DNA from: Psychromonas antarctica
Lineage (GTDB): Bacteria; Pseudomonadota; Gammaproteobacteria; Enterobacterales; Psychromonadaceae
Assembly (NCBI RefSeq): GCF_022267535.1
Contig: NZ_JAHNZV010000011.1
Coordinates: forward strand, 1-64,000
Length of the DNA: 64,000 bases
Direction: 5' to 3'
Part shown: piece after piece, positions 18,749 to 55,984 of the stretch
Layout of the letters: each line of letters opens with the position of its first letter
Numbering within the stretch: the stretch's first letter is position 1
Made by a program: the position numbers and the translations under genes
Notes under the pieces: model-generated
The model's input: only the letters and a program-made list of their open reading frames with translations
The model's database searches: none
Told to the model about the DNA's origin: nothing

Positions 18749-19798
18749 TTACCTTAGGGCTGCTTTGAGTTTTTCCATGCCCTGCTCGATACTGACTAGA
18801 GGTTGGTAACCTAGGTCGTCTTTTGCTGACCGGATATCAAAATAGTGACTGGTTGAAAGTTGACGAGCGACAAAACGGGTCATCATGGGCTCTTGTTCTT
18901 TTCTAAGGCCTAAATAGATCCATTCTAATAATGTGCCCAGACCATAGGCAAGCCATGCAGGTACGCGTTGAGTAACGGGAGCAAGTCCTTTACAGGCTAA
19001 TATCTTATTAAGCATATCTGCCATCAAAATAGGCTCATCATTACTTATAAAATAAGGTTTACCAGCACAAATAGGGGACGCTTCATTGAGTTTAACTGCA
19101 GCCAAAAGATGTGCGTAAACTGCGTTATCTATGTAAGTCGTATCTACCAGTTTATCAACTTTCCCTACTAATTTTAGTTTACCCGCGGCTGCACGTTGCA
19201 ATACTCGTGGCGCTAAGTGTGGATCGCCAGGTCCCCAGATAAGGTGAGGGCGAAGTGCAACGGTTTTTAGCATTGCCCCATTAGCATTTAATATATGCTG
19301 TTCTGCAATCGCCTTAGATAAACCATAAAAATTTAAAAACTGGACCGCATAAGGTGTAGATTCATCAATACCATTTTCATCAGCACCGCCGAAGGTAACA
19401 CTAGGTGTGCTGGTATAAACTAAGCGTCGGATATCAAGAACTCGACAAGCTTCAATAATATTCTTAGTGCCGCAAACGTTAGCTTGAAAATAGGATGCTT
19501 TACTGCCCCAAATTCCGGCTTTTGAGGCAACATGGAAAACCACATCGGATCCGCGCATCGCTTCTAGTACAACTTGTTGTTCAGCAATATCACCTCTAAT
19601 TAATATTACACCGATTGCTCTTAAAGCTGGATAATCTGAACGAGCAAAACCGACCACTTCAATATCAGCAGTGCGTAGATGACGGCATAATGCATAACCT
19701 AAGAAACCGCCAGCACCAGTGACAAATACCCGTTTTACCTGAGATGATAATAACGTTAAAACCGTTTGTTGTTTCTCATCTAAAGCATTAAATTGCAT
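18749..19798 (-). CDS. oleD: OleD, 2-alkyl-3-ketoalkanoic acid reductase
   Basis: OleD reduces the beta-keto acid made by OleA to a beta-hydroxy acid with NADPH, the second step of long-chain olefin synthesis. It is an extended SDR: nucleotide motif VFVTGAGGFLGYALCRHL near the N terminus, DVVFHVASKAGIWG, catalytic YGLSK at about 190, and RPHLIWGPGDPHL. The ATG at 19798 gives 349 residues and starts 7 bases after the oleC stop; a TTG at 19819 would overlap oleC by 14 bases. It is the last gene of the oleABCD operon, which makes the function secure beyond the generic epimerase fold. Confidence 0.9.
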   Translation of the reverse strand: MQFNALDEKQQTVLTLLSSQVKRVFVTGAGGFLGYALCRHLRTADIEVVGFARSDYPALRAIGVILIRGDIAEQQVVLEAMRGSDVVFHVASKAGIWGSKASYFQANVCGTKNIIEACRVLDIRRLVYTSTPSVTFGGADENGIDESTPYAVQFLNFYGLSKAIAEQHILNANGAMLKTVALRPHLIWGPGDPHLAPRVLQRAAAGKLKLVGKVDKLVDTTYIDNAVYAHLLAAVKLNEASPICAGKPYFISNDEPILMADMLNKILACKGLAPVTQRVPAWLAYGLGTLLEWIYLGLRKEQEPMMTRFVARQLSTSHYFDIRSAKDDLGYQPLVSIEQGMEKLKAALR

Positions 19799-19805
19799 TT
19801 TGCTA

Positions 19806-21485
19806 TTATTTCTGTCCAATGCGTTTATTCACCTGTTGCTGAGCCCAAACTGCCAATTTTTCACGGTAAATTTTTGCATTATGGCGGATATCCATAGGAA
19901 AACCCGAATGGATCAAAAAGTGCTTGATACCAACTGTCTGAGGATACCTTTTCGCGATAAAGGTCAATTCATTAAAGAGTTTAATTGAACTTTCTGATGG
20001 TTCATTGAGCAGCTCAATACATAACAGAGGCACGGTTTGTTGTTCATATTCAACGGCCACTAATGCGCTGCGCTTGATGGCAGAATGCGTATTAAATATA
20101 CGTTCACAAGGGATTGAGAAATAGCTTTTAACTTGCTTTTCAAAGGTTGCATGTACGGCATGAGATTTACGCCCGCACATCCATAATCTGGCATGTTCAT
20201 CAAGATAACCAAGATCACCCATACGGTGGCGGACATTATCACCATCGAATATTTTACTGGCAGCGGTTGCGTTCTCTCTATTGTAATAGCATCTACTCAC
20301 TTGCGGCCCACTCACTACAATTTCACCAATTTCATAAGCGGGTAAATTAAGCCCGTCTTGCCATTGGGCAATAATCAAGTCGCTGTCTTCAATAATGGCT
20401 ATATTGGTGCCTTGTACAGGTAAACCAACACAGATACCGCCGCCTGTATCAGTAATAGCTTCTGTTCTAAGCAATTCTAGGCTACCAATTTTACTAATAG
20501 GCAGTGATTCAGTGGCGCCATAAGAGTTAATGATTTCAACGCCTTTATTAAGCAATTTAGTAAACCGCTCTATTGAGGGTAGCGTTGCGGGTGCGCCTGC
20601 CGAGATAACACGTTTAAGCGTGTTTAATTTAATTCCAGTGACGATTCCTGCCTGGCCTAATCGCTCTATTAACGCTGGATTGGCAAATAGATTCGTACAT
20701 TGATATTTTTCGATGGCAGCAAATATATTATCAGGATTGACGGTGATCGGCTTGCTGGCATCCATATCAGGTACAATAGAAGCCATTCCAAGAGCTGGGC
20801 CAAACAGAGAAAACAGTGGGAAAGTGGCTAAATCTCGCTCGCCATTTATAATACCGTAATCATGTTTTAACAGTTCTATCTGAGCTTCAAACATCGCATG
20901 GCTATAAATAACCCCTTTGGGGCTGCCAGTACTGCCGCTAGTAAAAAGGATTGCAGCCATTTGCTGCGCATCAAGTCCGACCATCGGATAGGGATCTACT
21001 GTCACATATTTTTTAAGTAAATGATTTAAACTGCTTCCGCCCCAAAAACTCAATCCTGCTACCGTAATATTATGTTTAATGGTCGATTTTCCCCAACCAA
21101 ACAGTCGTCTAGCAATATGTGCTTTGGGGATACCGATAAAGACATCCGGTGCAGCTTCATTAAAACACTGCTTAAGATTTTTAGTACCCATGCCGGGATC
21201 AACCAAAATAGGGATGATGCCTGCTTTAAACAGGGCAAAAGTAATGGCAAAAAAATCAATACTTGGCGTGACCATCAAAACCGCTTTGTCACCGCTTTTT
21301 ATGCCATATTGATTAAATGCAAAAGCGATTTGGTCACTGCGTTGATTGAGTGTGAAAAAATCAATCTCTTGATAGCGAAGTGTATTAAATTTTCTCTGTT
21401 GAACCGCAACTGCAAGCCCAGTCGGGATCTGCTGTGCTGCATCCACAAGGTGCCGGCAAAGATTGGCATGTTTGCTATTTTGCAT
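19806..21485 (-). CDS. oleC: OleC, beta-lactone synthetase
   Basis: OleC belongs to the AMP-dependent acyl-CoA synthetase fold but uses ATP to turn the 2-alkyl-3-hydroxy acid from OleD into a beta-lactone. Visible motifs are the ATP-binding loop [16 protein letters not shown], then INSYGATES and [19 protein letters not shown] for the C-terminal subdomain. I chose the ATG at 21485 (559 residues), which places [14 protein letters not shown] near the start as in relatives; an ATG at 21533 would add 16 residues but has no ribosome site. Its stop lies close to or inside the start of oleD. Position between oleB and oleD confirms the assignment. Confidence 0.9.
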
Positions 21486-21569
21486 AAATATCTGCGTATC
21501 TGACTTAAATAATTGAATGAATATTATCGCCATTAGGATGCAATGGCGATGGAGATAAAGATCGACTGT

Positions 21570-22451
21570 TTATGGATTAGCCGTCATAAATTTTTCAATG
21601 AGAAGAATAACCTCGTCACTGGCATCTTCAAGAATATAATGGCCGCAATCAGCAAATTCGTAGACGTTCGCATGGGGCATTTTTTTCTTCCAAAGGTCTA
21701 AGAAATGTTTATCGAAAATAAAGTCTTTTAAACCCCAGCAGATAATAGTCGGTACCGTTTGCAAGTGAACTAGACTTTCATCAATATCAGATACTAACTG
21801 ATAGCTTTTGTCCTTCGCCAGAAGTGGAATATCCTGCACAAAGCGTAGTGTAGAAATACGATTTTTCCATGAGTTAAAGGGCATGACATAAGCTTGACGG
21901 ATCGCTTTGGGCATCGCTTTACGTTTCACTCCTATGTGAGATGCAATGGCAGAGAATGCATTAAAACCGCGCACCAACAATGTACCCAATAGAGTATTAC
22001 GGCAAATCCATAAGGCGATCGGGAATTTTTTTGTTTGTGGGAGATGAAAAGCACCGGTATTTAAAATAACTAATCGTTTGATCCGTTCTGGATAACGTGC
22101 TGCGTAACCCAGACCGATCATGCCGCCCCAATCATGTACGACTAAGGTGATATTTTCATTTATCTGCAGCGTGTCCAGCAATGCTTCTAAATCATCAATA
22201 CGGCTTTTAAGTGTGTATTGATAATCTTTATCACCGGGTTTATCAGATAAACCACAACCGATATGATCGGGTACAATACATTGATAATTTTTGCTCAGTG
22301 CTTGCACTAAATTACGGTAATAAAAAGACCAGCTTGGGTTGCCGTGCACCATCACAACGGGATCTCCAGAGCCTTCATTTAGGTAATGATATTGCTGTCC
22401 GTTACGTGTTAAAAAATTGCGTTTAAAAGGAAATAAGCTCTCAAAATTCAT
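21570..22451 (-). CDS. oleB: OleB, alpha/beta hydrolase, beta-lactone decarboxylase
   Basis: OleB resembles haloalkane dehalogenases but removes CO2 from the beta-lactone made by OleC, giving the cis-olefin. The 293-residue protein has the oxyanion stretch VMVHGNPSWSFYYRNLV, the nucleophile Asp in LVVHDWGGMIGLGYA at about residue 109, the acid region IICWGLKDFIF, and the catalytic His in ADCGHYILED near the end. It begins one base after the oleA stop, so the genes are cotranscribed and probably coupled. It is a separate gene here, not fused to oleC as in some Gram-positive clusters. Confidence 0.92.
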   Translation of the reverse strand: MNFESLFPFKRNFLTRNGQQYHYLNEGSGDPVVMVHGNPSWSFYYRNLVQALSKNYQCIVPDHIGCGLSDKPGDKDYQYTLKSRIDDLEALLDTLQINENITLVVHDWGGMIGLGYAARYPERIKRLVILNTGAFHLPQTKKFPIALWICRNTLLGTLLVRGFNAFSAIASHIGVKRKAMPKAIRQAYVMPFNSWKNRISTLRFVQDIPLLAKDKSYQLVSDIDESLVHLQTVPTIICWGLKDFIFDKHFLDLWKKKMPHANVYEFADCGHYILEDASDEVILLIEKFMTANP

Positions 22452-22452
22452 A

Positions 22453-23502
22453 CTACCACTCCACGCCTAACATCATGCAGTTTAAACCACTGCCAATTCC
22501 TAAAAAGCTGACATTATCACCTTTGGTTAAGAACCCCTGATCATGAGCCATTGCCGCGGTTACGGGTAAGGAAACCGTGCCCATATTACCTAGTTTTTGA
22601 TAAGTGGGAAATTCTTTATAAGCAGGAATATTTAATGCAGCCAACACCTGTTTTTGATTAGCAGAACCCACTTGGTGACAGATTACTTTATCTACCTGTT
22701 CAACCTCCCAATCACGCTGACTTAAAAAATGTTTCCAAGTGTCATGTGCTAAAGCCACTCCTTCTTTAAGTAGCGGTACCGCATTCGTACGCATAAATTC
22801 ACGGTGCAGTTTCAGGCCAACCTCTTGTAATCCCCATTTACACAAATCATGATGTTCTGGGGCCGAAAGATGACTGGCACCTAATAATTGATGTTGACGT
22901 GAATTTTTTAACGGTAAGCTACCATCCGTAAGTAAAACCGCCACCGCGCCTGAACCACCGGTTAAGGTTGCTAAAGACTGAGAGAAATTCTGAATAGTTG
23001 GATTTTCAAGCATATTATCAATAGTGATATCGACAATATGGCGGGCTGATTCGCAAGAAACAACGAGTCCCGCTTTAATTTGACCTAGTTCGATGCGGTT
23101 GGCGATATCCAAAATGCCGGATAGCACACCTAAACAAGCATTACTGATATCGTAGATAGCAGTATTTTTATTAACACCTAACTCGGCTGCAATACGGCAA
23201 GCTGTTGCGGGTTCATGTTGATCTCGGCAAACCCCCGTATAAATTACTGCGCCAATATCATTTATATTAATGGCAGTTTCAGTGATAGTTTTATTTGCAG
23301 CAGCAATCGCACCATCTGATAAACGATGATTAGCTGGCCACCAACGACGCTCCTGAATGCCAGTTAAAGCGGCAAGTTGGCCCATAGGAATACGTAGCTT
23401 TTGATACAAAGGCGCCAGACGCGATTCTAATTCGGTGCTTGAAATAATATGTGGTGCCAGTTCATAAGCCAGGCTATTGATATAAACGCGGGAATATTTC
23501 AT
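22453..23502 (-). CDS. oleA: OleA, head-to-head acyl condensing thiolase
   Basis: OleA joins two fatty acyl-CoA molecules by a decarboxylation-free Claisen condensation, giving a 2-alkyl-3-keto acid that commits carbon to olefins. The 349-residue protein is a KAS III-fold thiolase: nucleophile Cys in DISNACLGVLSGILDIAN at about residue 124, catalytic His in VDKVICHQVGSANQKQ at about 285, and Asn in GNMGTVSLPVT. The start MKYSRVYINSLAYELAP matches known OleA rather than FabH. It opens the four-gene operon, 160 bases upstream of the mnmC end, with a weak ribosome site. Confidence 0.93.
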   Translation of the reverse strand: MKYSRVYINSLAYELAPHIISSTELESRLAPLYQKLRIPMGQLAALTGIQERRWWPANHRLSDGAIAAANKTITETAININDIGAVIYTGVCRDQHEPATACRIAAELGVNKNTAIYDISNACLGVLSGILDIANRIELGQIKAGLVVSCESARHIVDITIDNMLENPTIQNFSQSLATLTGGSGAVAVLLTDGSLPLKNSRQHQLLGASHLSAPEHHDLCKWGLQEVGLKLHREFMRTNAVPLLKEGVALAHDTWKHFLSQRDWEVEQVDKVICHQVGSANQKQVLAALNIPAYKEFPTYQKLGNMGTVSLPVTAAMAHDQGFLTKGDNVSFLGIGSGLNCMMLGVEW

Positions 23503-23664: not shown

Positions 23665-25680
23665 TTAAAATTTTAGCGGTTTCCCTTTTTTTAAATAATT
23701 CAACCATTGCCGATTTCCTTGCAGTGAATTTAGAATTTCACTGCTCAAAGGTAAGGGTTCGTGGTTTATCTGGGCGGCTAACATTTCTGCTAGTAAAGGG
23801 GCCGTGCATAATCCGCGCGATCCTAATCCGGTCAACATATAAAGGTTTTTATGGAAAGGGGCGTTAGCAAGGGGGGGGGATTTCTGTACGTCAGGATAAA
23901 ACGTTGTGGTCGCGCGGTAATCGGGTATTGCGCCTACATAGGGGAAGTGGTCACGTGTGCTACAGCGAATACCAACATTAGCTTTATTCCCAGAGATATC
24001 AATGTCGTCGACCCAAACCTTATCTGGGATACACTTCGCCAGTTTTTGTTTGTTGTCGTCTTGTTCCTGAACTGAAAAGCATTGATCAGTTGTATGGCGT
24101 TTAAATGTTGCGCCCATACAATGTTGTTGGTTATTTTCAGGGGTAAGATAACCTTCGTGGCAAAGTGTCACCTGTAATTTATCAATAGTGTTATTTGTTG
24201 GTATGTGACTAACTTGGCCGCGTGCCGCAGAAAGTGGAAGCGCTTCGCATTGCTTAAAATCTAAAGTATCAAAACCAGTCGTTAATACTAACAGTTGATG
24301 ATCAACGTGTTTATCAGCGAAATTTAGCTGCCAGCTATGCGGATTTTGCGAAAATGAGTTCAGCTTGTGATTAAAGTGGATAGTTAAGTTACCCGATTGC
24401 TGCGCTTTATCAAATAGAGCGTTTACCATCTGCTTCGGGCTTAACCATCCTGCAAGGGGGTAATATAAGGCACGCTGGCCAATATCTATATGAGCAATCG
24501 AGTTACTTTGCATTGCCGATTTTTGCACGACAAGTTCAGTTGGGAATTGCCCCAGTAATATTTTATCTAATTTCTTTGCCGATATTGGATCATAATAGAG
24601 TTGTAGTAGACCTGAGAAGTCAAATGCAAAAGGATTGGATTGCGCTAACTGCAGCACATAATTTCGTGCGAATAAAAAAGCATTGGTGAAAAACTGGCTA
24701 AGAGCAGAGTGGTGACCGTTTAACAGAGGGTACAAAGCAGCTTGTTCATTACCTGATGCGCCGTGAGCCAGTGATGCATCTTTGCAATAAAGCGTGACCT
24801 TAAAACCACGTTTTATCAAGGCAAGCGCTAGGCAAGCGCTGCTAATGCCTCCACCGATAATGGCGATATCACGTGTTGGACTGTCGGCAGCTGCACGGTA
24901 ATTGGCGCCATATGTTGGTACTTTCAGATCTGCGCGTGAAAATTGTCCAATTAGCATCTCCCTTTTTTTGCCATAGCCTTTACGTTTTTGCATAGCAAAG
25001 CCGGCATTGATAAGCCCTCTGCGCACAAAACCTGCGGCAGTGAAAGTAGCAATAGTAGCATCCGTTTTGCAGCTATCCGCTATCTGCTTAAACAGTTGCT
25101 CACTCCACATCTCAGGATTTTTACTGGGCGCAAAGCCATCTAAGTACCAGCAATCAAAAATCCCAGCATCATAAAGGTAAAGCGCGGGTAGCATCTCTTT
25201 AACATCGCCAAGCCAGAGATCCAAGGTGATATTAAACTCATTCAGTGTAATACGGTGGCAACCGGTTAATGCCAGCGGATATTGGTCGAGCAATGGTTTA
25301 ATAAAATAGTCTAATACAGGCCAGCGGTTGAGGGCACTTTGTAAATCTTGTTTATTTAGAGGGAATTTCTCGAAACTACTGAAATGCAGACGTTGCAGCT
25401 GCGCTGCTGGATGACTTTTTTGGAACGCTTGAAACTCTAAGCAGGTTATTAAGAAATTAAGACCGGTACCAAATCCTGTTTCTGCAACGGTAAATAATGG
25501 TTCACTGCAATCTAACCAGCGTTGCGCTAAGTTATTGCCTTGTATAAAAACATATAAAGATTCGTTTAATCCTTGCTCAGTATTAAAATAGACATCTTGA
25601 AATAGCTGTGAAAATGGTTCGGACTGATCAGACCAGTTTATTTTCGCGTGCGTAATTAATTTGTTTTTGTCTTCAGACAA
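23665..25680 (-). CDS. mnmC: Bifunctional tRNA modification enzyme MnmC
   Basis: MnmC finishes the mnm5s2U34 wobble modification in tRNA. The N-terminal half (1-250) is the SAM methyltransferase, with [17 protein letters not shown] and [15 protein letters not shown]. The C-terminal half is the FAD-dependent oxidase, starting at about 270 with the dinucleotide motif [18 protein letters not shown] and [14 protein letters not shown], and ending with [20 protein letters not shown]. The 671-residue length matches the fused enzyme (E. coli 668). The start is TTG with GGGAA about 9 bases upstream. It is divergent from fabB, the arrangement also found in E. coli. Confidence 0.96.
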
Positions 25681-25801: not shown

Positions 25802-27016
25802 ATGAAAAGAGCAGTAATTACAGGTATCGGTATTGTTTCTAGTATTGGTAACAATAAAGAAGAAGTTTTGGCATCACTTAAAAGTGGTAAGTCCGGCATT
25901 ACATTTTCAGAGCAGTTTGCTGAGATGAAAATGCGCAGTCAAGTTTGGGGAGACTTAAAAATTGAGCCAAAAGATCACATTGACCGCAAAATAATGCGTT
26001 TTATGGGTGACGCAGCTGCTTATACTTACCTTTCGATGCAGCAGGCCATCGCTGATGCGAACTTGCCAGATGAAATGGTTTCTAATGAACGAACGGGCTT
26101 AGTTGCAGGCTCTGGTGGCGGTTCGTCTAAAAACCAAGTTGAAGCTTGCCAAATCATGAAAGATAAAGGCGTACGTCGAGTCGGTCCTTATATGGTACCG
26201 CGTACCATGGCGAGTACAACATCTGCCTGTGTCGCGACACCCTTTAAAATTAAAGGTATCAATTACTCCATGAGTAGTGCCTGCGCGACCAGTTCACATT
26301 GTATCGGTCATGCGCTTGAACAGATCCAACTGGGTAAGCAAGACATTGTTTTTGCTGGTGGTGGCGAAGAACTGGATTGGACAATGGCTTGTGAATTTGA
26401 CGCAATGGGCGCGCTTTCAAGCAAATACAATGACACACCTGAAAGTGCATCGCGCACCTACGATGCCAAACGTGATGGTTTTGTTATCTCCGGTGGCGGC
26501 GGTATCGTTGTCGTTGAAGAGCTTGAACATGCGCTTGCCCGTGGCGCAAAGATTTATGCTGAAATCGTAGGTTACGGAGCAACGTCTGACGGTTACGATA
26601 TGGTTGCACCATCGGGTGAAGGTGCGGTGCGTTGTATGCGTCAAGCACTTGCAACAGTTGAGGGGGATGTTGATTATCTCAACACTCATGGTACTTCGAC
26701 ACCTGTTGGTGATGCGAAAGAGCTAGAAGCCATTAATATTGTTTTCCCTGAGAAAGCGCCAAAAATCAGTGCTACTAAATCTCAAACGGGCCATGCGCTC
26801 GGAGCGGCAGGTGTTCACGAGACTATCTATAGCTTACTGATGATGGAAAATGACTTTATTTCACCATCAATTAATATCGAAGAGCTTGATGAGAAGGCGG
26901 TAAATCTGCCTATTGTTGCTAATAAAGCGATTGATGCAAAATTAAATATTGTGATGTCAAACAGCTTTGGTTTCGGCGGTACAAACGCAACATTGGTATT
27001 TAAACGTTACTCGTAA
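25802..27016 (+). CDS. fabB: 3-oxoacyl-ACP synthase I (KAS I)
   Basis: FabB elongates acyl-ACP and is required to extend the cis-unsaturated intermediate made by FabA. The 404-residue protein carries the nucleophile Cys in [20 protein letters not shown] (about 163), the His residues in [12 protein letters not shown] and [13 protein letters not shown], and the closing [17 protein letters not shown]. The start [18 protein letters not shown] is typical of KAS I. It lies opposite mnmC across a 121-base gap and ends in a strong terminator. With fabA at 37981 it gives the cell the anaerobic unsaturated fatty acid route. Confidence 0.97.
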
Positions 27017-35828: not shown

Positions 35829-35907
35829 ATTCCATTGTCGATTGGATATATATCCGTTAGCATTTTAGATGCAAAAAGCCGCCTCTGGGCTTGCTCCATA
35901 GGCTGCG

Positions 35908-35939
35908 ACATTCGATAAGGGATAGCCCTTATCGAATGT
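35908..35939. repeat. Perfect 14-bp palindrome with four-base loop
   Basis: ACATTCGATAAGGG (35908-35921) and CCCTTATCGAATGT (35926-35939) are exact inverted arms around ATAG. Flanking GCG/CGC bases can extend the stem. It lies between sppA and the DUF2919 remnant and next to a GC-rich stretch that also pairs (GCCGCC with GGCTGC at 35878-35906). No T run follows it. Confidence 0.85.
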
Positions 35940-36005
35940 TGCGCTTGTCTTGGTGTTCGAGCTAACAATTGATAAATGCATTTTGATTGATAACGATTAC
36001 AAGTC

Positions 36006-37980: not shown

Positions 37981-38520
37981 CTAGAAGTTCGACGTATCAA
38001 CAAAGAGACCTACTTTGAGATCTTCAGCGCTATAAATCACTTTACCGTCAACTTCAACAACACCATCCGCAATACCCATAACAAGCTTGCGCATAATTAA
38101 ACGTTTTATAGTAATACGGTAAGTTACTTTTTTAGCTGTAGGTAATACTTGACCTGTAAATTTAACATTACCGACACCTAATGCGCGACCTTTACCAGGA
38201 CCTCCGCTCCAACCAAGGAAGAAGCCTACTAGTTGCCACATAGCATCAAGACCGAGACAACCGGGCATAACCGGGTCACCTGGGAAGTGGCATTGAAAGA
38301 ACCATAACGCTTTATCAATATCTAATTCAGCAATTAATTCGCCCTTACCGTGCTCACCGCCATCCGATGTGATGGATATAATACGGTCTAGCATGAGCAT
38401 ATTATCAACGGGAAGTTGACAGTTGCCTTCGCCAAACAGCTTACCTTGACCACATTTCACTAATTCTTCTTTGTCGTAAGAGTTTTTCCCCAACTCTTTT
38501 TGGGATAGGGTTTTAGTCAT
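37981..38520 (-). CDS. fabA: 3-hydroxydecanoyl-ACP dehydratase/isomerase
   Basis: FabA dehydrates 3-hydroxydecanoyl-ACP and isomerises trans-2 to cis-3-decenoyl-ACP, the branch point for unsaturated fatty acids without oxygen. The 179-residue protein (ATG at 38520; a GTG at 38526 is the alternative) has the active-site His in [20 protein letters not shown] and the Asp in the same block, and the start region [18 protein letters not shown] typical of FabA and not FabZ. It lies just upstream of sppA on the same strand and downstream of the Lon-type gene, as in E. coli. Confidence 0.97.
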
Positions 38521-38668
38521 AATCACTTATCTTGTAATAGAGAGAAATTGCTGCGGCATTGGAAACACTTGATTTTCAATACCATAAAAATTTTATGCTG
38601 CCGTACTTTATATGACAGGCTACTAACAATCAACTTTAATCAAAATCTTGTTGTGTGTAATTACTTAT

Positions 38669-50018: not shown

Positions 50019-50127
50019 GGTAGGCTTCTTGGTTCTTCGCATTGATAACTTATTAACCTGGTCAGAGCCGGAAGGCAGCAGCCATAGTAGGTGATTCAAG
50101 TGCCGAGGGTTTGCTGGGAAGTCTACC
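50019..50127 (+). ncRNA. ffs: 4.5S RNA, signal recognition particle RNA
   Basis: The conserved Ffh-binding domain is present: CAGAGCCGGAAGGCAGCAGCC with the GGAA tetraloop, followed by GTGCCGAGGG. The ends GGTAGGCTTC (50019-50028) and GAAGTCTACC (50118-50127) pair to close the long hairpin, giving about 109 nt against 114 in E. coli. It is transcribed on the plus strand between pssA and lpxM. The ends are set by base pairing and could be off by a few bases. Confidence 0.95.
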
Positions 50128-55942: not shown

Positions 55943-55984
55943 TTTGTAATATAAAGGTAGCTTGCGCTACCTTTGTATTACAAA
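55943..55984 (+). terminator. Long hairpin terminator after topA
   Basis: TTTGTAATATAAAGGTAGC pairs with GCTACCTTTGTATTACAAA with one mismatch around TTGC. The U tract is only the TTT inside the arm, so its strength is uncertain. Confidence 0.7.

Follow-up and report, generated by a model that had tools for sequence, protein, structure and literature searches.

The 64,000-nt stretch of Psychromonas antarctica DNA analysed here (the window) carries a complete oleABCD cluster of the type coupled to polyunsaturated fatty acid (PUFA) synthesis. Its OleA very probably joins two 16:4n-3 chains derived from a Pfa synthase, which would make the hydrocarbon hentriacontanonaene (C31:9) the end product. 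The expected product can be named because the genome carries the PUFA synthase; for substrate, chemistry, product and cold response we infer by analogy with published work, mostly on Shewanella. Both the pathway and its link to Pfa are already in print, Psychromonas included, in the portions of the reports available (PMC6463001, PMC3098273), and the cluster in the window is a further, ordinary and expected example. The four genes are intact and lie on the minus strand at 18749-23502 in the order A-B-C-D, with oleB and oleC as separate genes; these coordinates from the ORF list match the complete cluster in canonical order announced in the preliminary description. The features discussed below are as follows.

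oleA, 22453-23502, minus strand: 349 aa, thiolase-fold condensing enzyme with Glu97, Cys123, His276 and Asn306; Trp223 in APEHHDLCKWG
oleB, 21570-22451, minus strand: 293 aa, haloalkane dehalogenase fold group with an HDWGG elbow; predicted to act as the beta-lactone decarboxylase
oleB-oleC spacer, 21486-21569, minus strand: 84 nt, with a 10-pair hairpin
oleC, 19806-21485, minus strand: Shewanella-type olefin beta-lactone synthetase, 559 aa if begun at the ATG at 21485 (longest ORF 575 aa from 21533)
oleD, 18749-19798, minus strand: Shewanella-type 2-alkyl-3-oxoalkanoate reductase, 349 aa if begun at the ATG at 19798 and 356 aa if begun at the TTG at 19819
mnmC-like gene, 23665-25680, minus strand: located upstream of oleA, with Methyltransf_30 and DAO domains; a neighbour conserved by synteny in Psychromonas, outside the pathway
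fabB, 25802-27016, plus strand: beta-ketoacyl-ACP synthase I, syntenic neighbour
fabA, 37981-38526, minus strand: in the window

Only 1 nt separates the end of oleA from the start of oleB. The oleC ATG at 21485 is common to the three nearest relatives, TTTATGCAA, and the curated OleC model begins at residue 23 of the 575-aa version, in agreement with that ATG; oleC therefore probably starts at 21485 rather than at 21533, leaving a gap of 84 nt behind oleB. A 14-nt overlap between oleC and oleD arises only with the TTG start at 19819, while from the ATG at 19798 the two genes are separated by 7 nt. Because it hinges on the TTG, an overlapping junction was not adopted here. The junctions, described earlier as tight or overlapping, are thus tight between oleA and oleB and between oleC and oleD, and that description fails for oleB and oleC.

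Two of the enzymes passed curated NCBIfam equivalog models of the Shewanella type, OleC with 942.1 bits against NF045785 (cut-off 850) and OleD with 588.5 bits against NF042423 (cut-off 580). OleA scored 514.9 bits against the 3-oxoacyl-ACP synthase III model NF006720 (cut-off 285) and aligns end to end with the solved OleA of Xanthomonas (3row, 3s21 and others; E value about 5e-52). For the comparison of OleA sequences, 80 of 110 relatives were kept, and the alignment has 80 rows, consisting of 79 loci and the window, with locus L080 left out. All 80 aligned rows have Glu97, Cys123, His276 and Asn306, and we take these to be the catalytic residues, Glu97 being the one contributed by the partner subunit. 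Cys123 corresponds to the published catalytic Cys of OleA (PMC6463001). The gene in the oleB position encodes an alpha/beta hydrolase, for which the NCBIfam matches included no curated OleB model; the best of them were haloalkane dehalogenase models below their cut-off (156.7 vs 241 bits). Its identity to the corresponding gene between oleA and oleC is 69-85% in other Psychromonas and 71-76% in Shewanella. Its identification as OleB is a prediction from place, from fold group and HDWGG elbow, and from orthology.

The ratio pN/pS between the window and five other Psychromonas, a rough measure since synonymous sites are near saturation, was 0.06-0.16 for oleA, 0.17-0.24 for oleB, 0.18-0.39 for oleC and 0.21-0.37 for oleD; against two of the nearest relatives (L008 and L009) the ole genes gave 0.06-0.23. 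As the ratio is low in each of them, all four genes are, on this comparison of sequences, under purifying selection. Together with model E values down to 8e-284 and a gene order repeated in related Psychromonas, these low ratios place the cluster beyond chance.

A search of the genome for pfaABCD, as the preliminary description had suggested, was positive, with pfaA, pfaB, pfaC and pfaD in one run on contig C168. PfaA (2619 aa) scored 3570.5 bits against TIGR02813 (cut-off 1010.1), PfaB (819 aa) 194.5 bits against TIGR02816 (cut-off 144.3), and PfaD (531 aa) 661.7 bits against TIGR02814 (cut-off 449.25). PfaC (1919 aa), which has no model of its own, was assigned by place, size, and KS and FabA-like domains. 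These genes, along with the OleC and OleD models, support the earlier assignment to a pathway for head-to-head olefins, of the PUFA-coupled kind known from marine bacteria. Ahead of pfaA on C168, at a distance of 56 nt, lies a gene for 268 aa (L087, 8817-9623) with weak similarity to IS481 transposases (78.1 bits, cut-off 224); we consider it a possible candidate for PfaR, a regulator of pfa. A phosphopantetheinyl transferase (PPTase) on contig C237 (L094, 8338-9129) passes the general PPTase domain model TIGR00556 and is the sole match to PF01648 in the genome, a search which found no separate AcpS; we infer that this PPTase is PfaE. At a distance of 2.9 kb from it lies an orthologue of PfaT, a 134-aa thioesterase (L094, 12057-12461) that, among solved structures, matches the ORF6 thioesterase 3r87/4i45 best (E value 1.7e-74). 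The other 4HBT_2 gene in the genome is YbgC. Psychromonas was among the genera in a published analysis of PfaT, and its pfaT was reported to be unlinked to pfa or ole (PMC6463001).

In the proposed pathway, polyunsaturated chains would be built by the Pfa synthase, whose genes lie on another contig, and OleA would take two 16:4n-3 chains, probably straight from the acyl-carrier domains of Pfa, and form a beta-keto acid by head-to-head coupling. OleD would then reduce this acid, OleC would close the beta-lactone, and OleB would remove CO2 to yield C31:9, which probably enters the membrane and rises in the cold. Several published results, as far as the available text of the source extends, bear on this scheme (PMC6463001). 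In Pfa-bearing species OleA was reported to condense exclusively the predicted Pfa-derived 16:4n-3, despite the presence of type II fatty acid synthesis (FAS); C31:9 is lost from S. oneidensis when pfa is mutated; E. coli given oleA and pfaA-E makes a 31:8 ketone; and in two Shewanella the level of C31:9 goes up at low temperature. What C31:9 does physiologically is still described there as obscure. The co-occurrence of pfa and ole, as well as the presence of C31:9 in Geobacter bemidjiensis, has also been reported (PMC3098273, in part PMC4882568). The preliminary description left the product open. As a prediction this is too cautious, since C31:9 is documented for this gene combination; as a statement of fact it is fair, given that Photobacterium profundum SS9 has oleABCD and pfa, yet no detectable C31:9 (PMC6463001).

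The closest characterized systems are those of Shewanella (S. oneidensis MR-1 and S. pealeana), which are Pfa-coupled with C31:9 as product. They share gene set and order with the window, OleA is 82-84% identical to that of the window at 18 Shewanella loci, and pfaABCD is present in the genome of the window, too. In contrast to Shewanella, the cluster in the window adjoins mnmC and fabB and has a hairpin-bearing spacer before oleC, and its product is a predicted one. The ole clusters of other Psychromonas (e.g., P. ossibalaenae, P. aquimarina and P. marina) resemble it in both location and order; identity to their OleA is 95% for one Psychromonas metagenome-assembled genome (MAG), 82-93% for most others, and 75% for one MAG (L038).

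Within the genus, a family search covering 24 genomes found OleC over the cut-off in 21 and just under it in two, namely G019 (841 bits) and G018 (a 460-position fragment at a contig end); OleC was not found in G020, a genome 51% complete. PfaA was over its cut-off in 23 of the 24. Psychromonas, with ole and pfa close to universal among its genomes, would be well suited to tests of the role of C31:9. The wider sample of the order had 394 genomes in both the OleC and the PfaA search; the two were taken as one set because number and handles agree, although most rows without a match were unlisted. OleC was present in 61 genomes (E value at most 1e-150), with 55 over the curated cut-off and six under it (G018, G019, G034, G058, G077 and G096), while PfaA was present in 82, always over the cut-off. 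In G034, G058, G077 and G096 ole and pfaA are 4-5 kb apart. Across the order ole is nested within pfa: both were found in 60 of the 61 OleC genomes, which are not independent trials because ole occurs in 6 of the 115 genera sampled and reflects shared descent, and PfaA was found in 22 of the 333 genomes without OleC, G020 among them. Only one genome, G009, has ole without pfaA.

PfaA was also sought in the genomes of 49 of the 80 OleA loci, five gammaproteobacterial and 44 outside the Gammaproteobacteria; the 31 loci left out include most of those from Psychromonas and Shewanella, and L080, which by its contig name is from the same assembly as L041. A PfaA-like match was present in 37 of 40 genomes whose OleA is at least 47% identical to that of the window, although 12 of these 37 matches fell short of the cut-off, with E values of at most 1e-100, and could represent PKS-like genes of another kind. 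None was found in the nine genomes whose OleA is at most 44% identical.

Residue 223 of OleA (window about 22834-22836, minus strand) follows much the same division. It is Trp in 36 of the 37 Pfa-paired OleAs tested (Cys in one), in the three OleAs of this clade whose genomes gave no PfaA match, and in 30 further rows from genomes outside the PfaA test, whereas the nine outer-clade sequences, for which PfaA was found in 0 of 9 genomes, have Gly or Ser. On a tree of 56 of the 80 rows, built with a quick method, the pfa label needs four changes and Trp223 about one event. We thus regard Trp223 as a candidate marker of Pfa-paired OleAs or of their substrate class, and not as proof of function. 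Should the marker hold, clusters for polyunsaturated olefins could be separated from ordinary ones by sequence.

A stronger form of the proposal, in which the Pfa synthase of Psychromonas chiefly feeds OleA, with C31:9 and not docosahexaenoic acid (DHA) as the main product and with Trp223 marking and perhaps shaping the partnership, is tentative and on balance doubtful. In its favor are the presence of OleC (two just under the cut-off) and of PfaA each in 23 of 24 Psychromonas genomes, and the finding that the Psychromonas investigated had no or only trace DHA, as stated in the parts of the sources available (PMC3098273, in part PMC4882568). Against it, C31:9 producers have been reported to make eicosapentaenoic acid (EPA) or DHA as well (PMC4882568), and Trp223 amounts to about one event in the tree.

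It is quite improbable that OleA of the window mainly condenses saturated and monounsaturated chains from type II FAS, that is from FabA and FabB, and so makes olefins ranging from monoene to triene, the situation in Xanthomonas and Stenotrophomonas. Both fabA and fabB do lie within the window, as the preliminary description noted, but their proposed role in supplying precursors to OleA is unsupported. The exclusive use of Pfa-derived 16:4n-3 reported for Pfa-bearing species (PMC6463001) argues against it, and the adjacency of fabB is a feature of the location in Psychromonas. There, mnmC is upstream of oleA at 17 of 17 loci and fabB lies beyond mnmC at 15 of 17, the other two (L007 and L038) having short upstream flanks, whereas a search for six flanking genes at 18 Shewanella loci found none of them, a few flanks being short (e.g., L032). 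Xanthomonas campestris has an oleABCD of its own, and its OleA, whose substrates are type II FAS chains (PMC6463001), is similar to that of the window in its thiolase fold, as judged from sequence, and in its catalytic residues, but has nine residues fewer after the segment of Trp223 and a Gly at that place. The OleA of the window falls in the clade with PfaA-like matches in 37 of 40 genomes, rather than in the outer clade with 0 of 9.

The exceptional genome G009, which belongs to Psychromonas sp. CD1 (locus L036; 1.7 Mb, 79% complete), would fit condensation of FAS chains better. Its ole and pfa genes were examined at L089 (8177-12877) and L090 (4975-13195). It keeps an intact oleABCD under selection no weaker than in relatives, its ole pN/pS being much like that of another relative at similar distance (L010-L036 compared with L010-L018), and it has pfaB (706 aa), pfaC (1017 aa) and pfaD (530 aa), while pfaA was not found in this 79% complete genome. 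Beside pfaB, however, ligA is cut to 439 aa, which hints at problems of assembly or decay, and the absence of pfaA could be an assembly error. A literature search found no paper for the exact phrase 'Psychromonas sp. CD1'. The points counting against the preferred reading of a Pfa-fed OleA making C31:9 are the precedent of SS9, ole in G009 with no pfaA detected, the basis of the OleB assignment, and the shared descent behind the genome counts.

That the cluster is intact and usually yields little or no hydrocarbon, for instance because a hairpin between oleB and oleC lowers the expression of oleC and oleD, we consider very improbable. The case for such low output is the precedent of SS9 (PMC6463001) and the 84-nt hairpin spacer, since at all 14 further Psychromonas loci inspected the start of oleC, or an ATG in frame with it, is 0-3 nt from the oleB stop or overlaps oleB. 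Purifying selection on all four genes argues against it, and the hairpin has no clear U run after it, so that a terminator is only putative. The hairpin of the window has 10 pairs and ends 40 nt before the oleC ATG; those of the three nearest relatives (L007, L008 and L009) have 12 pairs and end 38 nt before it, in the same place. Its letters in L007 largely differ from those in L008 and L009, and those in the window differ again. As the position is kept and the arms have changed, pairing outlives sequence in this small clade, and we note the hairpin, as a minor lead, as specific to the window and its three nearest relatives among the Psychromonas loci examined. The spacer measures 77-78 nt in L007 (3159-3236) and L009 (10934-11010) and 338 nt in L008 (10934-11271). 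In the latter, from P. ossibalaenae, the hairpin is preceded by a MITE-like insertion that is about 260 nt long and has inverted ends.

Scans of the window for promoters (14 sites vs 15.0 expected from shuffles) and for terminator-like elements (7 vs 4.8 expected) were uninformative. A tRNA scan of the window found none, and an Rfam scan found nothing in the ole cluster, its single match in the window being the small SRP RNA at 50026-50123. Among 15 simple stems in the window, the longest, at 35904-35943 and 55943-55984 (16 and 18 pairs), are probably terminators or small repeats.
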